Positions 47,112 through 47,187 of a DNA stretch of 64,000 nucleotides are shown here, piece after piece. The DNA is taken from assembly GCA_031655335.1 (NCBI GenBank), contig CP134226.1:868001-932000 (forward strand), written 5' to 3'. Source of the DNA: Thalassospiraceae bacterium LMO-SO8 (lineage in GTDB: Bacteria; Pseudomonadota; Alphaproteobacteria; Rhodospirillales; Casp-alpha2). The notes beneath the pieces are model-generated. The model made no database searches, was not told where the DNA came from, and saw only the letters and a list, made by a program, of their open reading frames with translations. The position numbers were made by a program, and so were the translations under genes. The first letter of the stretch is position 1. Every line of letters begins with the position of its first letter.

Positions 47112-47187
47112 GAGTCCCGGTCAAGAAGTATTTGGATTCAAATACTTAGGAGAGAGTCCTGACGGCATATATGGGAGTCACGACTCC
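47112..47187. promoter_or_regulatory. GANTC cluster and palindromes upstream of ccrM
   Basis: GANTC sites start at 47112, 47135, 47154, 47175 and 47182. Arms AAGTATTTG and CAAATACTT flank a GATT centre at 47126-47147, and the second GANTC overlaps it. GGAGTC-AC-GACTCC at 47174-47187 is a 14-bp palindrome holding two GANTC sites; it covers the rnhB stop. Feedback control by methylation is inferred. Confidence 0.6.

Follow-up and report, generated by a model that had tools for sequence, protein, structure and literature searches.

Most Alphaproteobacteria conserve the cell-cycle methyltransferase CcrM, and the sensing of its methylation mark at its own gene is mostly known from Caulobacter, in which the ccrM promoter is CtrA-activated and methylation sites within it were described in the 1990s. 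In the DNA analyzed here, five GANTC sites and two palindromes occupy the region between rnhB and ccrM, which raises the question of whether ccrM is controlled by its own product, and through which proteins. The reading we favor (probability about 0.6) is that positions 47096-47187 form a ccrM promoter of an IHF-assisted sigma-70 type, methylation-responsive to its own product and widespread in Alphaproteobacteria; CcrM would thus probably sense its own mark at its own promoter.

Locus and Comparison Sets

The window (the whole 64,000-nucleotide stretch analyzed) comprises bases 868001-932000 of a single-contig 3.98-Mb genome. The studied region lies between rnhB and ccrM, both encoded on the minus strand (Table 1). 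A first-pass annotation, made from the letters of the window, had named the downstream gene ccrM, and a profile search agrees in that the product is CcrM-like (628 bits against NF050803, under the model cut-off of 830).

Regions upstream of ccrM were collected from 53 relatives, 80 named loci, and 99 class loci (mostly one per family). The relatives (L001-L053) derive from 57 CcrM-matching genomes among 61, with G017, G029, and G041 left out as truncated and G037 as a distant match; no promoter could be read in L050 (G006). L001-L007 represent seven species of the genus, and the eighth is G006, which was unreadable. The class set derives from 99 of 102 CcrM-matching genomes among 142, omitting G407, G332, and G306 (partial matches) as well as second matches in G389, G383, and G334; it consists of 97 loci plus L001 and L052, both shared with the relatives. 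The named set overlaps the relatives (e.g., L119 = G007, L129 = G057), and the two are not independent.

Table 1. Features of the rnhB-ccrM region (positions within the window).
Feature	Position	Strand	Basis or remark
ccrM, CcrM-like adenine methyltransferase (380 aa)	45920-47062	-	ORF and profile match
Weak -10 hexamer CATGCT, 17-bp spacer	47096-47101	-	Putative; C, A, T, and last T in register in 47 aligned relatives
GANTC in -35/-10 spacer, 8 bp past first T of TTGAC	47112-47116	-	Conserved; at ~-27
-35 hexamer TTGACC	47119-47124	-	Putative; from sequence and conservation in relatives
First palindrome, AAGTATTTG-GATT-CAAATACTT	47126-47147		Perfect 9-4-9; exact match to letters
GANTC (gene strand GAATC) inside IHF-like site, 15 bp before first T of TTGAC	47135-47139	-	~-50 from expected start
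IHF-like site TAA-GTAT-TTGAAT	47136-47148	-	8 of 9 positions of YAANNNNTTGATW; one mismatch (TTGAAT); A/T-rich downstream side
GANTC 34 bp before TTGAC	47154-47158	-	Conserved in part; 26 GANTCs at offsets -32 to -35 in 48 relatives with TTGAC
Second palindrome, GGAGTC-AC-GACTCC, covering rnhB stop	47174-47187		Exact match to letters
GANTC 55 bp before TTGAC, then CCATATNT block	47175-47179	-	At -55 in 17 of the 48 TTGAC-bearing relatives
rnhB, ribonuclease HII	47178-47816	-	Profile match
GANTC 62 bp before TTGAC, at rnhB end	47182-47186	-	At -62 in 12 of the 48 TTGAC-bearing relatives

GANTC Cluster and Promoter Layout

All five GANTCs noted by the first-pass annotation upstream of ccrM are present, within 75 bp of one another (Table 1). 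The motif is scarce in the window (85 sites vs. 262 expected from shuffles), a scarcity that is general in Alphaproteobacteria (PMC3973325), and elsewhere in the window a stretch of ~76 bp holds at most three. When 85 sites were placed uniformly, five starting within 71 bp anywhere in the window arose in 3 of 20,000 simulations (p ~0.00015). In an earlier study that compared GANTC counts over 500-bp windows, control by methylation was judged not to be derivable (PMC2877005, section 8); the signal at ccrM lies in the position of GANTC more than in its number.

A consensus scan found no canonical promoter or terminator in the region. The putative sigma-70 core (TTGAC, a 17-bp spacer, and a weak CATGCT), with transcription expected to start near 47088-47090, places a GANTC between the -35 and the predicted -10, the arrangement by which GcrA/CcrM promoters are recognized. 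In a gapless alignment on TTGAC of 47 of the 53 relatives (score of at least 18 of 29 to a consensus of our choosing), the commonest letters are TAA-N4-TTGA(T/A)TC-CA, A/T-rich DNA, CTTGAC, GANTC, and CATNNT. The conserved layout reads TAA-N4-TTGA(T/A)TC, ~10 bp, TTGAC (-35), 3 bp, GANTC, ~6 bp, often a second GANTC, and the -10. With offsets measured from the initial T of the final TTGAC (0), GANTCs are most frequent at -15, +8 (to +10), and +19. Named loci show additional maxima at -9 and +2, positions at which the second spacer GANTC contains the final TTGAC. The +19 site is missing in L001-L004, and L005-L007 have one at +18.

A GANTC at +7 to +9 of any TTGAC occurs in 41/53 relatives, 66/80 named loci, and 41/99 class loci (shuffles 0.2, 0.35, and 0.2, respectively), and none of the fifteen other palindromic pentamers exceeds 3 at this spacer position (2 in class loci). 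Conservation in relatives, a check named beforehand, was thus borne out. A second spacer GANTC follows 9-12 bp further on in 20/53, 54/80, and 26/99 loci of the three sets (shuffles 0), and a GANTC 14-25 bp before TTGAC is found in 42/53, 65/80, and 50/99 (shuffles 0.5, 1.0, and 1.1). Because other pentamers are also frequent at the upstream position (commonest: CANTG in relatives, 20; AANTT in named loci, 21; TTNAA in class loci, 12), as is expected beside a conserved A/T-rich block, the upstream GANTC count, taken by itself, is less specific than that of the spacer. There is no GANTC within 260 nt in 14/99 class loci.

Among the 61 genomes, GANTC-N10-TTGAC-N3-GANTC has 40 matches in 39 genomes, 38 of them at ccrM by position, and its reversed control has two; this three-part layout is practically private to ccrM in these genomes. 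Only G037:C7:24233-24260 and G036:C17:6855-6882 lie away from a located ccrM. Across the order, TTGANTCCATTTANTTCTTGACG with up to two mismatches has 64 matches in 63 of 297 genomes (reversed control 0), with none in the window's own genus. One genome, G219, carries the ccrM promoter pattern twice (C114 and C78). A class-wide pattern found matches in only 6 of 385 genomes, namely the present genome and five from other orders, always upstream of ccrM. It was too strict, so that the class was surveyed by fetching ccrM upstream regions instead. Judged from these sequences, the promoter layout is common to many distantly related alphaproteobacteria, and the recurrence across the class of GANTCs at fixed places relative to the -35 lends support to the earlier proposal that the ccrM promoter is timed by methylation.

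For loci with a recognized promoter, an in-frame ATG lies 32-38 nt past the first T of TTGAC in 38/48 relatives, 19/74 named loci, and 28/58 class loci; in relatives L008-L052 the ATG at the predicted start often reads ATGGGCAGAGA. Since this ATG stands where transcription should start, a leaderless ccrM mRNA is predicted, and is probable in those relatives. The window and its genus (L001-L007) have an ATG at +62 or +63, and no in-frame ATG at +32 to +38.

An IHF-Like Site Beside the -35

The conserved block TAA-N4-TTGATW equals the published IHF consensus, TAAnnnnTTGATW (PMC10380432). Where a GANTC lies 14-16 bp before TTGA[CA], 8-9 of the nine consensus positions agree in 43/44 relatives, 50/54 named loci, and 22/32 class loci, three of the nine being forced where GANTC is required; all nine agree in 25 of the 44 relatives. 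The six free positions score 5-6 at 43/48 such sites in relatives vs. 14/384 orientations of other GANTCs, with corresponding values of 50/55 vs. 11/502 in named loci and 22/32 vs. 25/564 in class loci. Irrespective of GANTC, a site with at least 7/9 positions adjoins TTGA[CA] in 49/53 relatives, 58/80 named loci, and 35/99 class loci (shuffles 0.25, 0.65, and 1.60), and one with at least 8/9 in 47/53, 54/80, and 27/99 (shuffles 0.10 each). At other same-strand TTGA[CA] occurrences within these loci, most of which lie in coding DNA, the counts are 4/1,010 and 0/1,010, respectively. In 64/99 class loci there is no IHF-like site (at least 7/9) at this position.

Twenty of the sites with at least 7/9 positions lack a GANTC, 13 of which still score 8-9, several as TTGATTT; that they are kept without GANTC suggests a role of TAA-N4-TTGA beyond methylation. 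In 28 of 49 class rows, TAA precedes the upstream GANTC by exactly 9 bp, with any other offset reaching at most 2. IHF-alpha, the subunit covered by the profile search, is encoded over the NCBI cut-off in this genome (G000:C1:3452954-3453229) and in 53/61 genomes. By its consensus, from which the assignment is made, the block looks like an IHF binding site; a factor other than IHF could read TAA-N4-TTGA.

Palindromes and the Dyad Reading

Both palindromes reported by the first-pass annotation are present to the letter, and they had been taken to suggest an additional dimeric factor. A regulator binding the dyad AAGTATTTG-N4-CAAATACTT would account for the perfect 9-bp arms in four of the seven species of the genus, and for the arms of the other 40 relatives, in which on average 4.95 of 9 pairs match and four of the pairs show complementarity in 29-38 of 40. 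Such a reading also predicts a better match between arms of one species than between arms taken from different species. This is not observed: same-species and swapped arms match in 4.95 vs. 4.93 of 9 pairs in these 40 relatives (p 0.47), 3.22 vs. 3.33 in 54 named loci (p 0.88), and 3.23 vs. 3.15 in 31 class loci (p 0.38). Because arms swapped between species match equally well, the matches follow conserved columns, and complementarity is not kept by covariation in any of the three locus sets. The low agreement of the named and class sets (~3.2 of 9 pairs), the A-tract that forms the right arm in many Rhodobacterales (by eye), and the lack of a second copy in the genome also speak against a dyad-reading regulator, which we consider very improbable.

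With up to three arm mismatches, AAGTATTTG-GATT-CAAATACTT occurs at a single place in the 3.98-Mb genome, as does a reversed control pattern; a regulon of the first palindrome is ruled out, there being no other copy. Size alone does not make such palindromes rare: the window holds 24 perfect inverted repeats (arms of at least 9, loop 0-8, nested entries included) vs. 6.65 in shuffles. Longer ones occur at 28680-28715, 12870-12901, and 52689-52716 (arms 15, 13, and 12), possibly as terminators.

In our reading, the first palindrome would be a genus-level coincidence overlying the IHF-like site. The second has complementary GANTC arms in four of the seven species and broken arms in three, with both GANTCs kept in all seven; on this pattern it is best described as a by-product of two neighboring GANTCs, and as a binding site it is ruled out by the three species with broken arms. 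Of the earlier proposal, the argument from dyads falls for want of arm covariation, and a dimeric factor is still likely in the form of IHF, which is heterodimeric and has an asymmetric site. Relaxed to TAAGTCATTG-N4-CATTTAATT with three mismatches, the pattern has 86 places among the matches listed in the 61 genomes vs. 11 for the reversed pattern; ~26 of the 86 listed are at ccrM by position (counted by eye), and those away from ccrM are possible IHF sites. At G016:C19:85466-85488, on a contig other than that of ccrM, TAAATCATTGATTCCATTTACTT is a good copy of the block with a GANTC.

GcrA and the Proposed Methylation Reader

GcrA, the established reader of methylated GANTC, is encoded in this genome (G000:C1:1791174-1791509) and was found in 53 of the 61 genomes. 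The conservation of the layout could therefore be that of a classic GcrA promoter, in which GcrA and sigma-70 read m6A in the spacer and TAA-N4-TTGA is simply an A/T-rich upstream promoter element. GcrA binding is enhanced by m6A in GANTC, with a footprint from -35 to -10 on fully methylated ctrA P1 (PMC3667746), and Caulobacter transcription start sites with a GANTC between -10 and -35 form a timing class of their own (PMC4287350). Across species, however, spacer GANTCs do not follow GcrA. In the class sample, GcrA exceeds the Pfam cut-off in 84/142 genomes, and a spacer GANTC is present at 36/76 loci with GcrA vs. 13/23 without (p 0.48); the two show no association, contrary to our initial reading.

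A second search, with a profile built from 16 GcrAs, gave a single partial match (G297) in the 23 Pfam-negative genomes. At relaxed thresholds this search recovered 11/11 positive controls at E 5e-13 or better, all of them chosen as Pfam-positive; the 12 remaining spacer-positive genomes reached no value better than E 0.004, with nothing at E 10 in 8 of the 12. Twelve genomes thus encode CcrM and carry a spacer GANTC with no GcrA by two profiles (G361, G374, G381, G382, G433, G430, G354, G408, G373, G394, G325, and G409), and 10 of the 12 have both spacer GANTCs. Their completeness is 84-100%, G361 being a single contig rated 100%; non-detection may reflect very divergent GcrAs or draft gaps. 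The Pfam GcrA model also exceeded its cut-off in a control genome of Sulfolobus acidocaldarius.

These twelve genomes put in question the published rule of gcrA and ccrM co-occurrence (PMC3885167), under which a genome has both genes or neither. Their retention of the spacer GANTC, together with the fixation of TAA at one offset, which is unexpected of a mere A/T-rich element, leads us to regard a classic GcrA promoter as an unlikely full explanation. A layout kept without detectable GcrA suggests another or older methylation reader. More tentatively, and on balance doubtfully, the ccrM promoter could be an old self-contained sensor in which the response to GANTC methylation is made without GcrA, by IHF with sigma-70 polymerase or by another reader, GcrA having been added or lost later; families with CcrM, a multi-GANTC promoter, and no GcrA would then be its natural examples.

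CtrA and MucR

Two further explanations were considered. In the first, ccrM is activated by CtrA as in Caulobacter, and the GANTCs are incidental. In Brucella the ccrM promoter is bound by CtrA (PMC2877005), in Caulobacter CtrA is an activator of ccrM (PMC3667746), and a CtrA-like motif occurs within 200 nt at 19/99 class loci (shuffles 9.05). In the window, however, there is no TTAA at 47040-47200, and hence no CtrA site of the form TTAA-N7-TTAA or TTAACC near the -35; moreover, of the 49 class loci that carry a spacer GANTC, only 6 show a CtrA-like motif, and the GANTC positions are far above chance. We give this explanation next to no weight. In the second, MucR or another nucleoid protein occludes the GANTCs, such that the promoter stays unmethylated. 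In Caulobacter, the GANTCs of several promoters are occluded by MucR, which was also tested in Sinorhizobium (PMC5172544). PMC7987155 reports no identified MucR consensus for Caulobacter, and the site here matches that of IHF; occlusion by MucR is accordingly improbable.

Proposed Regulation and Known Systems

The IHF-assisted promoter that we favor builds on the observed positions, conservation, and specificity of its elements and on the gcrA and ihfA genes of this genome, and its IHF binding, methylation sensitivity, and sign of regulation are predictions. The sigma-70 core with its spacer GANTC would be adjoined at the -35 by the IHF-like site with its embedded GANTC, with more GANTCs upstream. 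IHF would bend the DNA immediately upstream of the -35, and a reader, GcrA with sigma-70 where present and another elsewhere, would act via the spacer GANTCs; methylation of the GANTC inside the IHF site would perhaps also set the output. Passage of the replication fork would leave the sites hemimethylated and alter promoter output, until remethylation of the promoter by CcrM itself closes a feedback loop, by which CcrM synthesis would be limited to part of the cell cycle. The sign of such effects varies in Caulobacter: ftsZ appears to be most active when fully methylated (PMC3708114), and ctrA P1 needs hemimethylation (PMC8116508).

The Caulobacter promoters of ctrA (P1), mipZ, podJ (P2), and ftsZ likewise have a GANTC in or near the -35/-10 spacer, at -29 in ctrA P1 and -24 in podJ P2 (PMC4287350), and ftsZ and mipZ are activated by methylation (PMC3708114). 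The present case shares with them an encoded GcrA; unlike them, it concerns the promoter of ccrM itself, with an IHF-like site and two or three GANTCs placed at constant offsets, in a layout kept in some genomes without detectable GcrA. Transcription of ccrM in Caulobacter is probably affected by methylation (PMC3973325); the gene is the same, and the window region differs in having no CtrA-type TTAA motif.

Known IHF sites (TAAnnnnTTGATW), such as that at E. coli oriC, resemble the block in consensus, matched exactly in 25/44 relatives, in the A/T-rich flank, and in the encoded IHF-alpha; here, by contrast, a GANTC overlaps the core and the site lies right beside the -35 box. An IHF-assisted flagellar promoter was reportedly described in Caulobacter by Gober and Shapiro in 1992. 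In Dam-type switches (pap, agn43), a GATC overlaps a regulator site. The likeness is that of a methyl mark inside a protein site at a promoter; the methyltransferase and the protein are different, and here the promoter is the methyltransferase's own. In the excerpts of open-access literature covered, a scope outside which the 1990s ccrM promoter papers fall, we found no IHF site or class-wide GANTC layout at ccrM. The layout would tie a nucleoid protein, IHF, to a methylation site, and its fixed form across many families makes autoregulation of ccrM directly testable beyond Caulobacter.

Other Features of the Locus

The gene at 47829-49415, which adjoins rnhB, encodes an antiporter resembling MagA and KefC/KefB (465 bits with the MagA model, under its cut-off of 700). 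Further upstream of the promoter core, a second block at 47166-47179, GACTC followed by CCATATNT, recurs in many relatives at a near-fixed distance, ~-80 to -90 from the expected start.
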